Shown here: positions 12,782 to 35,097 of the stretch, one piece after another | Layout of the letters: each line of letters opens with the position of its first letter | Numbering within the stretch: position 1 is the first letter of the stretch | Assembly: GCF_000341285.1 (NCBI RefSeq) | Contig: NW_005178443.1 | Location: 62,001-126,000, forward strand | Origin: Galdieria sulphuraria | Taxonomy: Eukaryota > Rhodophyta > Bangiophyceae > Galdieriales > Galdieriaceae | DNA: 64,000 bases | Reading direction: 5' to 3' | Program-made: the position numbers and the translations under genes | The notes under the pieces: generated by a model | What the model was told of the DNA's origin: nothing | The model's input: the letters and a program-made list of their open reading frames with translations, nothing else | The model's database searches: none

Positions 12782-15700
12782 ATGCACGAAACACTTCTCA
12801 TGGACTACTCTAGTGGCAACAGAGCATGCGACAAGATATTTCAACAGCAAATACTTTTTTATGAGATGGAGACAAAGAATCAAGCGTCGCTACTTATGTC
12901 ATATTATCGATGGAGAAGATCTATAGTAAACAAAGGCTACGAAGTAGACTCCGATAGGCATCGTCAATTGGCGTATTTTGGACTTTGGAAGATTGGAGTT
13001 ATTGCACGATATTTTCGAACCCTCCAAAACTATGCACATAAACGAAAAGAACAAAGACAGAAAGCTGAATTGTTCTATAAACGGTTATTGGCGCAGAAGA
13101 CATTATTAGCCTTGATTTCTCACTCTTTAAACAGCAAGGTGATGGTTGAATGCGATTCTCTCAAAGATGTGAGTCATAGAAAGCCCCCAAGAGAACTTCA
13201 TAGAAAGGGGAATTGGAATGTCACAGGAAACAGAGGAAAGTCCTTTCCACAATACATTCTGACTATGGGAGCATGGATAGAAGCTCTCGAAGCTAGAGCA
13301 GAAAAATATTTTCAAAGAAAATTGATTTTAAGAGTGTTTCATCTTTGGCTGATGTATTTTCATTGTGCAAAGATTTCTTCAAGATGCAAAGATAAGGTAA
13401 CATTGATTTTTTCATCAAGAACAGTCCCCAGTCGACTTGTTCAGAAAACATATTATGAAACTTCAGTAGAGACTGTTTTGCCCGTGATAACCTTTGACCA
13501 AATTGCATTTCGATGTCAAAGAACACAAATTACTTTGTTATGGAAGATATGGATCCAAGGCATTGAAGACATTCGAGAATGCAAACATTTATGGGCATCT
13601 TCTTGGAAGCAATTGAGAGATATGATTCACAACAATCAGGAATTCCGAGAAAAATCACTGCAGTTGCCATTGAAAAGTTCATGGATAAAACCTGCGGTGC
13701 AGAGAAGGCAAGAAAATGTATTGCAAAGATGGATGGATCTTCGAATATTTTATAAAAAACAATATATTTGGAACTGTATGAAACTGGTTCTCTTAGATAA
13801 GCATTTCAACAATCGACTAGCTAAGAGAATATATGATATATACCTTTTAAGAATGGGTCTCAAAGCACTCTATCAATTCGCGTTTGTGAAGATGCCTTAT
13901 ACTTTTATACTGAATGAGGACGAGACAGCAGTCCGATATGCAGATGAGATTGACAAGAGGAAGCGGAAGAGCAAATACTTCCTATTTTGGAAAACTATAA
14001 CAAAAATGCACAGGGAAAGACGACAGTTGGCTATTGAAAATGTGCAGCGGCATCGTAAGATTTTCCTATATACCAAAGCCAAATGGGCTCTACAGCATTA
14101 TGTCATAAACATTCGATATAGCGAGAGACTTATTATGACGAGAGCCAAGAACATTCGTCAATCTGGCGTCTTTAGAATTCTCCAAAGTTACTACAAGTTT
14201 CGTTCCAACTATAGCAGCTCTTTACTGGCTAAAGTTTCTCGTTCCTCTCTTCGAGTGGGTGGTCGCTATGACATACGCAGAACTTTGGGCAAATTGGTTC
14301 ATGTGTTTCATTTACCTTTGTATAATGCTGGAATAACCCAAAAATATTCCAATTATATCCAACTGTGGAATAAGTTGTTGTTAGAATCATCTACTTTGAG
14401 AGCATTGAAATTACATCACATACAAAGGCTTCATAAAGGAATCATCTTCTCTTCTCTGATGTATCTATTGTGTGATGACTTGAGAAGATTGTCACTTTTG
14501 GAATTGAGAGCTTTTGTGAATACCAAAAAGCGTAGACGTCGTTTATATAACAGAGCTCTTGAATTTAATCAAAACTGCTTACTGAATCGTATGTTTGTCA
14601 CATGGAGAAAGAATGCTCAATGGATGGTTGCAGAGCGTCAAGCAACTCAAGTTGCGATTGAGTTTTCAAGACATAAGAGTTCATCTTATTGGATGCCAAA
14701 ATGGATAAAGTGCGTTCGATATCGAAAACTTGTGGAAACCCAGATATCCAACAGACGACAGACCTTTGTACGAAAATGGAGCTTTATGTTATTGAGAATT
14801 GAAACCCTTGTTGGTATTTATTCCCAAAAATCTAAACAAAGGCCTGTTAGAAGAGTATTTCGTGCTTTCCAACAAGTCCTTCAAGAAGAAAGCAAACAGA
14901 GAAAGCTGTTATTGATTCAAGAACTCAAATCCAATAGAATTTTCGAAACACATTTGAGAAGAATGATGGACGGAGCTACGTTTTGCGTCTATCGCAACTC
15001 TCCTTGTCGAAAGACGGATGTTCATTTTCATTTGGACGAACATTTAGAATTCTTATATTCAACAAGAAAAGAACTATGTTTTTCTCTAGTTTCCATGTTG
15101 GAGTTGGAATATGGAACAGATTCATCCAACTATTTGGAACATTTACGAAAAGGCGGTATTCTAGCACATGAGTCTTGGCAATGCTTTTCTATATTTCTTC
15201 GCAATAGGAGCGAAGCAATCTGCCTAGCGACTGATAATGAAAGAACACTCGAATCTTGGTATATGGGGTTGGTACATATCATGGAAATATTGCAAAGGAA
15301 AACGAGAACATTCTCTTTCAAAGCGATGAGAGGAAGAATGAAACTTGATAAATTGTGCAAACAAAGAAACTGTTCTCTAGCAAGGCTACTTTTAGAAAAA
15401 CATTTGAAATCAACAGAGTCGAAAAGAGTGGCACCGACACTGGAACATTCATTGGTATCCGAGGCTCCGCTGGATATGCTATCTTCTCAAACTCATAATG
15501 GACAACAAGGATTACATTACAAAATAATGGCTCAAGCACTCTTTAGTCCAGAATTATTGATTCAAGAACTAAATGAACAACTTTTAAAGAAGGATACCAT
15601 TCAATTGCAGGGACCAGTATCCTTTTATTTGGAATCCGATAAAATACACACCAACAAATGCAATCAATATCAAGCTGAAGAAATTCAATCGTGGTTGCAA

Positions 15701-17047
15701 GCTGATGCAAGAATTCTTCGAGTAACTGTTCAATGTGATATTGCGCCTGTTCAGGAGCCTTGTATAGTAGAAGAAGAACAAGTCACTCCTTTGCCTCTTG
15801 CGCCTTTAGAAGATCTCACTCCTCTACCTGAAGATGAACCCATCTCTTTTGCTTTGAGCAAAACAGTTTCCTATATACATTCTGGACGCGTTCCCTCACT
15901 TGTACCTTTTGCAAGAGTACGTCTCGTCGTTCCAGGTTCACCTTCCAACGCGTCAGGATTAATAGAAGATGACTATATATTATCTCTTGGTAGACTACGC
16001 TTTTATAGAGACTCCCGTGGCGTACCTTTTGTACTTGGTTGTAATATAAGTCTTCAGAATATTTCTAGATGGGTTGAAAAGGAGTGCCACCAATATCAAA
16101 ATGGAACTTTACAATTAGTGGTTCTAAGACGCCTTGAATATTATCCCGAAGAATCTGAAGAAGTGATAGAGGAATGGCGGACGTTTCGATTGCAAGTACT
16201 TCCAAAAGCAAGTCCTAGATACCATGGTTTACTTGGTGCAACATTCGACTTTGATATTCTCAAGCAGCAGTTTCAGGAACCTTCCAAAAATATCCCATTT
16301 GCCATGGTTACTCTTGTGCAACCTGGTTCTCCTGCCGCAGAAGCAGGTTTCCAGCCTAATGATCTTATCCTTCAATATGGCTCCGTTTGTTTTACAACAC
16401 AAGACCATTATGAGAATGCTCAACAGTTGATTCAAGAGAGTTTGAATGCACAGACAGAGGAAGCCATCGTTGTTGTTGTTCTTCGGTCCAACAACGAAGG
16501 CTTAGATAACCATTATGATGCACCTCTTTGTATGTATCGTCTGTTAATAACACCCAGTCTTCATTATTATCGTTGGGAAGGTATTCATGGAATGCAATGG
16601 AGTTTCTTTTTAGCTCCCTCTGTGATTGGTACTATGGACAATGGTGAGACGGTTTATCATACTTCTAGATGGTTATGGGCAAAGTGGATGTTAAAAACGA
16701 TTAAGAAAGTCAAAGTGTTGTTGATACCTGACGACATTGTGATAAGATATCGAGTGTTTGCTGATTTTCTGAATCAAATTGCAGCAGATAGAAAGTTGGC
16801 AGGGCTCATTTGTGTATATAAAAAGGTCGACAAATATGCCTCCTTCCAATGTCCTCTACCTTGTTACGAGCTATTCTGTAGATATATAATGGATAATGAA
16901 CATTTGCAGTTGGTTATCAGGCAAAAGAAGGAGTCCTCTGTGTACACGAGCAGTTCATTGGCATCATCCAATAACAGTTCAAAGACGAACACTCCTAAAA
17001 AAGAGAAGAAAAAGTTCTTTTGGCCAAGTAAAAAACAACGCAAATAA
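12782..17047 (+). CDS. Giant SFI1-like / PH-like / tandem PDZ protein
   Basis: One exon codes 1421 aa. Residues about 1-700 are basic and helical with recurrent aromatic-Trp-Arg units (SYYRWRRS, LWKIG, MFVTWRKN, VRKWSF) spaced like SFI1 repeats, which bind centrin. Residues about 720-840 look like a PH-type domain, closing with WQCFSIFLRN and a final helix TLESWYMGLVHIME. Two PDZ domains follow: about 1030-1120 (core VVPGSPSNASGLIEDDYIL) and about 1135-1240 (core LVQPGSPAAEAGFQPNDLI). The tail is Lys-rich. Upstream exons are likely: ATG 12442 with a possible intron 12472-12536, then a frame open to a possible donor at 12690 and acceptor at 12759-12760, would join in frame with this exon. A second frame just upstream also looks partly coding, so the 5' end is unresolved. 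No named family covers the whole architecture. Confidence 0.75.
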   Translation: MHETLLMDYSSGNRACDKIFQQQILFYEMETKNQASLLMSYYRWRRSIVNKGYEVDSDRHRQLAYFGLWKIGVIARYFRTLQNYAHKRKEQRQKAELFYKRLLAQKTLLALISHSLNSKVMVECDSLKDVSHRKPPRELHRKGNWNVTGNRGKSFPQYILTMGAWIEALEARAEKYFQRKLILRVFHLWLMYFHCAKISSRCKDKVTLIFSSRTVPSRLVQKTYYETSVETVLPVITFDQIAFRCQRTQITLLWKIWIQGIEDIRECKHLWASSWKQLRDMIHNNQEFREKSLQLPLKSSWIKPAVQRRQENVLQRWMDLRIFYKKQYIWNCMKLVLLDKHFNNRLAKRIYDIYLLRMGLKALYQFAFVKMPYTFILNEDETAVRYADEIDKRKRKSKYFLFWKTITKMHRERRQLAIENVQRHRKIFLYTKAKWALQHYVINIRYSERLIMTRAKNIRQSGVFRILQSYYKFRSNYSSSLLAKVSRSSLRVGGRYDIRRTLGKLVHVFHLPLYNAGITQKYSNYIQLWNKLLLESSTLRALKLHHIQRLHKGIIFSSLMYLLCDDLRRLSLLELRAFVNTKKRRRRLYNRALEFNQNCLLNRMFVTWRKNAQWMVAERQATQVAIEFSRHKSSSYWMPKWIKCVRYRKLVETQISNRRQTFVRKWSFMLLRIETLVGIYSQKSKQRPVRRVFRAFQQVLQEESKQRKLLLIQELKSNRIFETHLRRMMDGATFCVYRNSPCRKTDVHFHLDEHLEFLYSTRKELCFSLVSMLELEYGTDSSNYLEHLRKGGILAHESWQCFSIFLRNRSEAICLATDNERTLESWYMGLVHIMEILQRKTRTFSFKAMRGRMKLDKLCKQRNCSLARLLLEKHLKSTESKRVAPTLEHSLVSEAPLDMLSSQTHNGQQGLHYKIMAQALFSPELLIQELNEQLLKKDTIQLQGPVSFYLESDKIHTNKCNQYQAEEIQSWLQADARILRVTVQCDIAPVQEPCIVEEEQVTPLPLAPLEDLTPLPEDEPISFALSKTVSYIHSGRVPSLVPFARVRLVVPGSPSNASGLIEDDYILSLGRLRFYRDSRGVPFVLGCNISLQNISRWVEKECHQYQNGTLQLVVLRRLEYYPEESEEVIEEWRTFRLQVLPKASPRYHGLLGATFDFDILKQQFQEPSKNIPFAMVTLVQPGSPAAEAGFQPNDLILQYGSVCFTTQDHYENAQQLIQESLNAQTEEAIVVVVLRSNNEGLDNHYDAPLCMYRLLITPSLHYYRWEGIHGMQWSFFLAPSVIGTMDNGETVYHTSRWLWAKWMLKTIKKVKVLLIPDDIVIRYRVFADFLNQIAADRKLAGLICVYKKVDKYASFQCPLPCYELFCRYIMDNEHLQLVIRQKKESSVYTSSSLASSNNSSKTNTPKKEKKKFFWPSKKQRK

Positions 17048-31984: not shown

Positions 31985-32928
31985 AAAGGATCAGCTTCAA
32001 GTTAATATCGAAGGAAGCTATAGATGGATTCTGAAGCACAGAACTATAGGAATACTATATGATTACTTGAATTTTGATATTTTTACAAAGTTGATGATAG
32101 TTACGAAATAGTACAAGTTCTTTAGAAAGTCTTACAAGTAACTAGGATAAGGACTAGTAGAAAGAAGAATATCAAAAATGAAGAATCGTAGGTTTTTTTA
32201 TGATCAACTATGAGGAAAATATGAAGAGTTTTTCAGTGACATGAAACTGAAATGATGGAAAGAAATTTCAAGAACAAGCTCGAGTTGAAAATAGTTTTCA
32301 AAGCGGAATGCTATAAACTCTTATGAATAACAATAGCGGAAATTTAGTGAGAATAGAGACGTGCAGATCGAATTTGTGCCGTTTGATTTCATATGCACAG
32401 AGCAAGCACTCCAACAAAGCTAAAATCCATATCTAAGCAAAGGATCCCTGAGGGCTTCCTTTAGCTGTGAGCCCGCCCAAATCTGTGCTTTGGGATAGCA
32501 ATGCATTTCCCCGCGCAAAGTGTTTCATCACTTTCATCATCCCTTTTGATTTCCTGGGACGTGCTCTTTGAGAGAATTCTTTCACCGTTACACCCACTCC
32601 CACAATTTCCAAAGTAACGTAAACTTGTGTTACCCATACACACTTGAATTATTGTCGAGTCTTCTTTCGTTGAGACTTGAATATTACGGCCTTTACTACC
32701 CCTTGATTATTGTCTAGTTCAAAAGAAAAACCCATAAGACTCGCTCCAAAGGTTACGACAAGAACGACAAGCAATACAGATAAAAAGGGGTTTTCCGGAA
32801 CCTAAGGACCCTTTGGATTCATTGTTATTCTATGTGTAGTATCTTCTACTCTAGTGGATTCTATTTCATCGAGTACGAGAAACGTAATTGGCTTGTTTCT
32901 TTGGAAGATATCCAACCTTGATATAGTT
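31985..32928. other. Intergenic region of about 0.9 kb without a supported gene
   Basis: Between the EEP gene and the STIL-like gene. The first part (about 32000-32300) is AT-rich; 32400-32650 is less AT-rich. A 60-codon frame on the minus strand (32643-32461) has a mixed charged composition but no recognisable motif, and I do not call it a gene. No tRNA-like B box is seen. It likely holds the STIL promoter and perhaps a leader exon. Confidence 0.4.
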
Positions 32929-35097
32929 ATGAATTTTCCACGCGTACGAAGTATATTATGGGATCCCACCCCAGAAAAAGAAGGGGAAGATGCAACAAGT
33001 AGCAACATAGAAACCATGTTTACTATTTCGGCAGAACAATTACTTTCTTCTGAATGGGTATGGAAAACGGAAGTTGTGAATCAGTTGCGCCAAAAGTTAC
33101 GAGAACGAAAGCAAGACCATTATTTTGCAACCATACGTGAAACGTGGTGTGACACTGGCAACTTGCGAATTTTTCCCCGGAAGTTGATTTTCGAGGCTGT
33201 TTCCGATAAACCTGAACAAGTCGATGACCAACAGAGAGCTAGTATCTCGTTACTAGTGAATGATCCGGAAACTGCTGTTTTTGAAAAAATGAAAGAGCAA
33301 ACTTATAAACCTATGTTTCGTGGATTTTGGTTATGCGAACTTGCTAAGTATTTTCCTCCCAGAATAGAGTTGGAAGAACATGGAAACGATGTTGTGCTAT
33401 GTTTAAGATTCTACATTCCAGATATTCAGTTTGTTTTCACGAAAATATCTTCACCTCGAGTACATAATATGGAAGTTCTCCATCAATGTCTAGCGAATAA
33501 CCAAAAGAAGAATGAAAGCATAGAATTGTATCCCATGATAGATAACTTTGGATTCTTGTCGATGAATTCAGTTCGCAAACTATTACTATACAGCAAAGAT
33601 GACCCTGATATTCTTGAAAGACAACCTGTTGTTGGCCTTTGGATGTTTGTCAAGGATAGGTTCGATCCTGCTATGCTTTGGATGGCTTGCTACGATTTCC
33701 TTTTTATGGAGGGTATTTGTGAGCGTGTACTTCAAAATGGTTCTTTTCTGATTTTGTTATATAATGGAAACCAACAGAAATACTCCATCTTATGCTGCAA
33801 TTGTGAAGCCAAACTGGGAAACCAACCAAAAGGTCAACAATGGAATAGCTCAAATCCTACTCTCCTCCAAAAATTATCTCTGAAACCATTTAGTTGCCAT
33901 TTTACTATTCCTGGATATAATATGAACACAGATATCGCTGGATATCTCGGACTACCAGTCAAAATATATAGATTCTTTGCTCTCAATGCCACTACTCTTG
34001 ATAGACGAAAATTAACATATTCTTCGCTTGATAGAAATTCGGTGAATAAGAATTCTGAGCGCGATTGGACATGGAAAGATAATATGTCAAGTAAATCTTC
34101 TGAAGAAGACATCACTGAAGGTGAACATCGTCAAATTGTAACAAAAGCAAAAGAACAAGTAGAGAACAAAAAGCATGATGAACAACAAGACCCAACCACA
34201 AAGCAGCAACTTCAACGTTTACATGAGGAAATGGAATCCCTTAAGAAATATTTTCGCAGCCTAGGAATTGCTCCTGATTATAAAAATTATCGAGAAAGCG
34301 CCAGTCGTGGAATGAAGTCTCTACCAGGAGAAGCTTCCAAGTTTTGGAACCAAACAAGAAGACCCCGTTCTCCTTCACAAGAAGATATTTCTGAAGATAG
34401 TGTCCTCGCAAAAATGGAACTAGGCTCCGGACATATCATGTCCCCAGTCTCCTCAGCAACAGATGACGATCCAAAAAATGACTTGTTTCAACCTCTTAAG
34501 ACTACTGTGCTACCAGCGTATGGAAGGCAACCAAATAATTCTTGGCTCAACAAACCTAGAGCAAAAAACCGAGTTGATGTGGCAGTTCAAGTTGATTTAA
34601 GTGAACGCAATACTAGAAGCACTTCCCAAGGTCATAATCCCACTCATACGAACCATTTAGAGACCCTTCCTAAGGAGATCGAAGAATCATTGGATAAGGT
34701 AGACGAACAAGTAGAAACTGATGATCTAAGGCCACGGGAGTATTCACATAGACGGTTGGAGCCTAGTGCGCTCCAAGAAAACTTCTTAGCTAGTCGAAGA
34801 TACTCTTCCCAGTCTTCGAACAGTTTGTCACTTTCCTATGAGAACTTTAGTGGCGACACAAAAGACCTTGAGTCTGAAGCTAGAAGTCAAGGTTCATCTC
34901 AAAGTTATCACCATGAAGTACCAAGGACAACCCTAGTCAACAGCAAAAAGACGCATAAAAGTTGTGAACGGCGACACTTGAACCAGCAGGGAAGTACTAG
35001 TCAGTTGTTGACGGCTGACACTGAGCTAACTGTGCCGAAAATTATTTATGCTAGTCTCTCGGACGATGAAGACTACGACAACGGATACAGTAGTTGA
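32929..35097 (+). CDS. STIL-like protein (Ana2/SAS-5 centriole-duplication family)
   Basis: Single exon, 722 aa from ATG 32929. In animals STIL links Plk4 to SAS-6 in early centriole assembly. The N-terminal part begins MNFPRVRSILWDPTP, like the conserved start of the STIL N domain, and residues about 200-300 align by eye very well with its second block: FGFLSMNSVRKLLLYSKDDP, PVVGLWMFVKDRFDPAMLW, ERVLQNGSFLILLYNG. A short coiled coil (KQQLQRLHEEMESLKKYF) sits near residue 450, as in STIL, followed by a motif VDVAVQVDLSE and a long Ser-rich, disordered tail. Length is about half that of human STIL. The frame is open upstream of the ATG to about 32854, so a leader exon may add residues. The role here is unknown. 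Confidence 0.75.
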   Translation: MNFPRVRSILWDPTPEKEGEDATSSNIETMFTISAEQLLSSEWVWKTEVVNQLRQKLRERKQDHYFATIRETWCDTGNLRIFPRKLIFEAVSDKPEQVDDQQRASISLLVNDPETAVFEKMKEQTYKPMFRGFWLCELAKYFPPRIELEEHGNDVVLCLRFYIPDIQFVFTKISSPRVHNMEVLHQCLANNQKKNESIELYPMIDNFGFLSMNSVRKLLLYSKDDPDILERQPVVGLWMFVKDRFDPAMLWMACYDFLFMEGICERVLQNGSFLILLYNGNQQKYSILCCNCEAKLGNQPKGQQWNSSNPTLLQKLSLKPFSCHFTIPGYNMNTDIAGYLGLPVKIYRFFALNATTLDRRKLTYSSLDRNSVNKNSERDWTWKDNMSSKSSEEDITEGEHRQIVTKAKEQVENKKHDEQQDPTTKQQLQRLHEEMESLKKYFRSLGIAPDYKNYRESASRGMKSLPGEASKFWNQTRRPRSPSQEDISEDSVLAKMELGSGHIMSPVSSATDDDPKNDLFQPLKTTVLPAYGRQPNNSWLNKPRAKNRVDVAVQVDLSERNTRSTSQGHNPTHTNHLETLPKEIEESLDKVDEQVETDDLRPREYSHRRLEPSALQENFLASRRYSSQSSNSLSLSYENFSGDTKDLESEARSQGSSQSYHHEVPRTTLVNSKKTHKSCERRHLNQQGSTSQLLTADTELTVPKIIYASLSDDEDYDNGYSS

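Follow-up and report, generated by a model that had tools for sequence, protein, structure and literature searches.

A STIL-domain gene in the red alga Galdieria sulphuraria and its SAS-6 and CPAP partner genes

Results

Identity of the STIL-domain gene

The 64,000-nucleotide stretch of Galdieria sulphuraria DNA analyzed here (contig NW_005178443.1, positions 62,001 to 126,000; hereafter the window) harbors a single-exon gene whose 722 amino acid (aa) product is near certainly homologous to STIL-domain proteins; judged by its sequence, we take it for a genuine STIL-domain ortholog in Galdieria. The genome also encodes SAS-6, a CPAP/SAS-4 G-box protein and a PLK1-type polo kinase, so a retained module is likelier than the lone relic that an initial annotation, made from the letters of this DNA, had put forward. 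We give a rough probability of 0.55 to the reading that SAS-6, STIL and CPAP are such a module, which would build a SAS-6-based microtubule organizer without a cilium.

The open reading frame (ORF) runs on the + strand from an ATG at 32929 to a TGA at 35097 with no interruption, and its frame is open upstream as far as a GTG at 32854. The ATG at 32929 is backed as the start because, in the alignment, the G. partita ortholog opens with the identical MNFPRVRSILWD. Compared with the annotated G. sulphuraria protein Gasu2_14850, the ORF product is identical at 721 of 722 residues. The profile search that the initial annotation had proposed as a check on its STIL-like assignment bore it out: Pfam STIL_N (PF15253) matched the product with an E-value of 4.6e-12 (46 bits; cut-off 27) and was the sole family above cut-off, and the same profile scored 40.5 and 45.1 bits in two Galdieria orthologs. 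A six-frame profile search of the 12.05-Mb assembly, in which only the best candidates get scores, found STIL_N at one place, the gene at 32929-35097. Against solved structures, phmmer returned one match at E<=1, 5oi9 (E 3.5e-4), named in the structure search as the Trichoplax STIL N-terminal domain; a three-species profile also recovered 5oi9, more weakly (E 0.0013) than the single sequence did.

A database search at E<=1e-3 retrieved 78 proteins, 69 of them named as vertebrate, 6 unnamed, and 3 from Galdieria or Galdieria-like sources, namely Gasu2_14850, GpartN1_g5973 of G. partita and one metagenome protein; no other red alga was represented among the 78. As the closest matches are Galdieria, the host is Galdieria, of the phylum Rhodophyta, in agreement with the red-algal host supposed at the outset. 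Identity to the vertebrate-type proteins aligned is 20-26%, that to the G. partita ortholog 68% and that to the metagenome ortholog 56%, and two orthologs at these levels indicate a maintained gene.

Red algae are described, in the accessible text of two sources, as having neither flagella nor centrioles (PMC8304369; PMC4979663), which speaks for a decaying relic or a contaminant. We rejected that explanation as barely credible, given an intact 722-aa frame, orthologs at the identities above, conservation among them that is concentrated in the core and coil, neighbors with CLPTM1 and importin-repeat matches, and the near-complete agreement with Gasu2_14850.

Conserved blocks, coil and tail

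The blocks in which the initial annotation had recognized the STIL N domain, RSILWDPTP, FGFLSMNSVRKLLLYSKDDP, PVVGLWMF and ERVLQNGSF, all lie within the 722-aa frame and align, in that order, with LWDPTP, GYLTMDxTRKLLL..SDP, PLVGIWLS and ERV.SESGSF of vertebrate STIL. The gene and its features, all on the + strand, are as follows.

32929..35097, +: one-exon STIL-domain gene encoding 722 aa, coordinates with the stop codon; open frame, STIL_N match, start shared with G. partita
32947..32973, +: residues 7-15, RSILWDPTP, which pairs with vertebrate LWDPTP in the alignment and falls outside the stretch scored by Pfam
33454..33807, +: residues 176-293, the core to which the STIL_N score applies
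34192..34260, +: residues 422-444, a short helix of a predicted coiled coil; AlphaFold, predicted local distance difference test (pLDDT) ~45-66
34243..34269, +: residues 439-447, KKYFRSLGI, a STAN-like motif similar to KKYMKRYGL of vertebrates and a candidate SAS-6 contact
34363..34392, +: PRSPSQEDIS segment, residues 479-488, conserved, a candidate phosphosite region
34576..34596, +: DVAVQVD, residues 550-556; residues 548-556 are identical at 8 of 9 positions in both orthologs
35026..35094, +: acidic C-terminal block, residues 700-722, conserved

The Pfam and hhalign scores stem from the later blocks (residues ~176-295), the first block being placed by alignment alone. Profile-profile comparison of Galdieria with vertebrate STIL joined residues 206-295 only and, contrary to expectation, did not join the coil or the tail. 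A domain-only structure prediction from 30 sequences (mean pLDDT 43, better in the core) supplied the model used for Foldseek, in which the best fold match of the predicted core was again the Trichoplax STIL N-terminal domain (5oi9/5oid). Full-length prediction from 20 sequences (mean pLDDT 35) was used solely for helix 422-444 and for the tail, which is predicted without structure.

As to the short coiled coil that had been claimed for the protein, a helix is predicted at residues 422-444, with a pLDDT of ~62-66 through residue 440 and 45 beyond, but the Pfam coiled-coil profile of STIL was not reached. Hydrophobic residues occupy 6 of 10 core positions in the best of seven heptad phases, and the likeness of the coil to that of vertebrate STIL was equalled by 18 of 1000 column shuffles (64-271 of 1000 for individual proteins). 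Directly behind the helix stands KKYFRSLGI, which reads KKYFRRLGV in G. partita. No column shuffle out of 1000 came as close to KKYMKRYGL as this motif does (0-5 of 1000 did so for individual proteins), and 2 of 1000 equalled the STAN-like 14-mer (5-46 of 1000 for single proteins), both choices being post hoc, as five vertebrate motifs were tested on the Galdieria tail and the STAN core was picked after being seen. It alone of the five stands out; the KSVSIAVSTG block, for example, was reached by 412 of 1000 shuffles in that tail. We therefore treat the STAN-like motif as a lead for a putative SAS-6 contact.

Identity to the G. partita and metagenome orthologs, respectively, is 82% and 67% in the core, 78% and 81% in the coil region (residues 421-452), 80% and 78% over residues 476-520, and 74% and 67% over residues 696-722, with 14 of 16 N-terminal residues identical in each; residues 557-695 are loosely conserved, at 48% and 37%. 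DVAVQVD in the tail has what we take to be a resemblance to the LC8-binding motif.

Elsewhere in the window, a single-exon frame of 1421 aa at 12782-17047 (+) has one family, PDZ, above cut-off, and frames near the STIL gene include CLPTM1 and an importin repeat (Pfam).

SAS-6 and CPAP in the same genome

SAS-6_N was found at one place in the Galdieria genome (six-frame profile search, E 2.1e-23). Removal of two introns from this gene yields a protein of 544 aa, identical to isoform 2 of the annotated Gasu_42870. At E<=1e-3 it matched 21 solved sequences that bear the name SAS-6 or 'Centriole protein', the best of them at E 4.9e-10; these are presumably for the most part human, zebrafish, Chlamydomonas and Leishmania proteins. 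Its F125 is aligned with a phenylalanine in chain 2y3v that we take to be zebrafish F131 of the head-to-head interface driving assembly, and a long coiled coil can be read from its sequence; SAS6-like proteins are not known to have a coil of this kind. The SAS-6_N head, the aligned interface phenylalanine and the long coil thus all point to membership in SAS-6 itself.

The spliced CPAP/SAS-4 protein of 329 aa has Tcp10_C (49.7 bits; cut-off 36) as its sole Pfam family above cut-off and matches solved CPAP at E 1.6e-16. Orthologs are present in G. partita (g4782; Tcp10_C 56.5 bits) and in G. yellowstonensis (58 bits), the latter matching solved CPAP at E 4.2e-19. Eight zebrafish CPAP residues that contact STIL are listed in the accessible text of PMC3776556; with numbering that fits the chain, 5 of the 8 are kept in G. 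sulphuraria and 6 of the 8 in G. partita, and F978, Y996, F1015, Q1019 and E1021, which include the three proline-packing aromatics, are kept in all four Galdieria sequences.

The annotated CPAP protein, Gasu2_56880 (309 aa; contig C19, locus L020, 1187-2293), omits an in-frame genomic stretch that is largely kept in G. partita. It is probably mis-spliced, since inclusion of the stretch raises the Tcp10_C score from 36.4 to 49.7 bits.

The acquisition of genes is well known in Galdieria, and the named STIL relatives outside the genus in our search were all vertebrate, so that horizontal transfer from an animal or another eukaryote, with an unrelated function, had to be weighed. We consider it very improbable: the STIL protein is just 20-26% identical to the vertebrate-type proteins aligned, vertebrates are probably favored in such a search by their heavy sampling in the database, and the three genes, on separate contigs (C33, C39 and C19), would have needed separate moves.

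Matches to SAS-6 and CPAP in shared-word database searches were confined to Galdieria or to unnamed metagenome sources, and the homology search returned no SAS-6 from G. partita; like the others, this search depends on exact words of five residues in common and on comparable length (for CPAP, ~181-576 aa). Because of these demands, 'only Galdieria' is a lower bound on the distribution.

Polo kinase, tubulins and ciliary genes

One polo kinase was found, in a 752-aa frame with two polo boxes (Pfam), and it scores 304 bits with PLK1 versus 231 with PLK4. The search for partners suggested in the initial annotation was fruitful for SAS-6, but PLK4 was not recognized, with a control that was silent as well. 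The tubulin search of the genome yielded six beta-tubulins, one alpha, one gamma and two FtsZ, the latter identified by eye; neither delta- nor epsilon-tubulin was found in it. A match on contig C14, tried as delta/epsilon-tubulin, was ruled out when reading of its ORFs by eye revealed the second FtsZ.

The six beta-tubulin genes (contigs C32, C9, C54 and C5; loci L005-L010) fall into two classes, 94-97% alike within and 81-83% between, and C9 and C54 each carry one gene of either class, about 3 kb apart. One of the classes might serve the tail of haploid cells that is discussed below.

Dynein heavy chain was not found with the AAA_6 profile in the genome, a search for which no ciliated genome served as positive control; the one AAA_6 match obtained (37 residues, 43.9 bits) was ruled out as dynein, the frames concerned holding two midasin lid domains. 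Nor was IFT57 found in the genome profile search. An LC8-type Dynein_light gene is present at C11:44606-44905 (locus L022), though the heavy chain went undetected.

These results bear on whether an unseen life-cycle stage might have ordinary centrioles or a flagellum. The core assembly genes are present, and the sexual cycle of the genus was first described in 2022 (cited in PMC13353863, as far as its accessible text goes). However, AAA_6 found the midasin frame only, IFT57 was not detected, IFT81 was not detected either (with a silent control), and, as the tubulin search gave alpha, beta, gamma and FtsZ only, there would be no delta or epsilon for triplets. We therefore regard such a stage as improbable, if slightly less so than horizontal transfer.

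Discussion

The genome thus keeps the initiation core, SAS-6, STIL and CPAP, and the ciliary genes that we searched for were not found. From the observed homology, gene integrity, conservation between species of Galdieria and co-presence of the partners, we infer binding, assembly, place and time as follows. Head-to-head contacts between SAS-6 dimers would produce a ring or a cartwheel-like scaffold; STIL would bind to the coiled coil of SAS-6 by its conserved helix region with the STAN-like motif, and would recruit CPAP by way of the CPAP G-box; CPAP might then tether microtubules nucleated by gamma-tubulin. The PLK1-type kinase is the likely regulator of this core, because no PLK4 was recognized. 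Since the searches yielded no dynein heavy chain, none of the IFT markers tried and no delta/epsilon-tubulin, the product would be a cilium-free microtubule-organizing structure. A body at the mitotic poles is one candidate for it, an organizer of the tail microtubules in haploid tadpole-shaped cells another.

The main rival holds that SAS-6, STIL and CPAP have been kept but form no cartwheel, having been repurposed as ordinary scaffold proteins of the mitotic pole or nucleus; repurposing was already one option in the initial annotation, whose example, a place at the polar rings of the spindle, is a guess. The missing matches to the ciliary genes searched for are equally in keeping with it, and so is the partial erosion of the metazoan STIL-CPAP contact, with no PRxxPxP and 2-3 of 8 CPAP contact residues changed. 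SAS-6, however, has lost neither its head domain nor its long coil, nor the phenylalanine that aligns with the interface, and joint retention of three core factors is expected if they still act together; we accordingly find the repurposed scaffold somewhat unlikely, and prefer the SAS-6-based organizer.

A number of observations weigh against that organizer. The PLK4 polo box 1 profile (PF18190) and the profiles for HYLS1, CEP44 and IFT81 had no match in the genome, but their controls were silent too, and the four profiles of this kind (PF18190, PF15311, PF15007 and PF18383) are unable to show absence. In the STIL protein, Pfam CC_STIL (PF25775) was silent on the product at E<=1 and on the two orthologs at E<=0.1, the main (second) STAN block was not found in the Galdieria protein (152 of 1000 shuffles), and PRxxPxP, carried by all three vertebrate-type proteins tested, occurs in none of three Galdieria STILs, for which reason we do not class the Galdieria protein as metazoan-type STIL. 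Confidence in the structure model is low (mean pLDDT 43), as are its Foldseek template modeling (TM) scores (0.27-0.34), and the alignment that fed it already included vertebrate STILs. Tcp10_C reached only 30.4 bits (cut-off 36) in the six-frame search, the spliced protein passing; in CPAP, moreover, Y994 and H1003, which hold the arginine of the motif, are changed in all four Galdieria sequences, and T1005 in three of the four, being kept in G. partita. This pattern fits a G-box that is still suited to proline-rich ligands, though no longer to PRxxPxP. The description of red algae as lacking flagella and centrioles, cited above, also tells against the organizer.

The haploid cells of Galdieria offer a place where the organizer could act. 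According to the accessible text of PMC13353863, they are tadpole-shaped and migrate over surfaces, with an extendable tail that contains actin and microtubules, and such tails were not observed in haploids of Cyanidium, Cyanidiococcus or Cyanidioschyzon. Tail and gene set thus coincide in distribution, a correlation rather than proof, and one drawn from a single genus. The actin ACT2 is, moreover, reported to be required for motility in G. partita haploids (PMC13353863), so that the tail could work without a microtubule organizer; these last two points, too, belong with those just listed against it. A more specific version, in which a naked centriole or cartwheel-like organizer lacking cilium, dynein and delta/epsilon-tubulin is built in the haploid tadpole cells, we put forward tentatively, as a possibility with the odds against it. 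If true, Galdieria would provide the first centriole-type structure known from a red alga, and red algal centriole loss would not have been one step. Red algae are a standard example of the lack of flagella and centrioles in a whole phylum, and centriole loss is usually regarded as following cilium loss. If the core works, cartwheel building would be separable from ciliogenesis, centriole loss would be placed inside the red algae and not at their base, and Galdieria would offer a minimal natural SAS-6/STIL/CPAP system with a CPAP of 329 aa. The question is made testable by the transformed and knockout G. partita haploids that have been reported (PMC13353863).

The STIL family itself is known, and GpartN1_g5973 of G. 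partita already carries the database name 'STIL N-terminal domain-containing'; the novelty lies in finding it as part of a core module in a red alga whose genome did not yield the ciliary genes searched for. Among the papers listed in a literature search, mostly without subscription papers, none joined Galdieria with SAS-6 or, by title, treated its centriole genes. Comparative studies could overlook a centriole core in Galdieria: the species list of one such study includes Cyanidioschyzon merolae (PMC3268115, in the accessible text), and another points out that orthology inference tends to miss precisely STIL, SAS-6 and CPAP (PMC10425847, likewise).

Among known systems, the closest likeness is to metazoan STIL (Trichoplax 5oi9/5oid and vertebrate proteins), with which the Galdieria protein shares the N-terminal domain, in sequence and predicted fold, and behind it a short helix, as predicted, and a long tail for which the prediction gives no structure. 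It differs in lacking PRxxPxP and recognition by CC_STIL, in its length (722 aa, against 818-1263 aa for the named vertebrate matches) and in the position of the STAN-like motif, directly behind the coil and not near the C-terminus. Drosophila Ana2 and C. elegans SAS-5 are likened to it by role, the place proposed for all of them being between SAS-6 and SAS-4, and SAS-5 is likewise without an unambiguous PRxxPxP (PMC3776556, in the accessible text). Compared with the known core of centriole assembly, the Galdieria set is without a recognized PLK4 (silent control), dynein heavy chain, IFT57 and delta/epsilon-tubulin in the searches described, and both core partners, SAS-6 and CPAP, are encoded in the genome.
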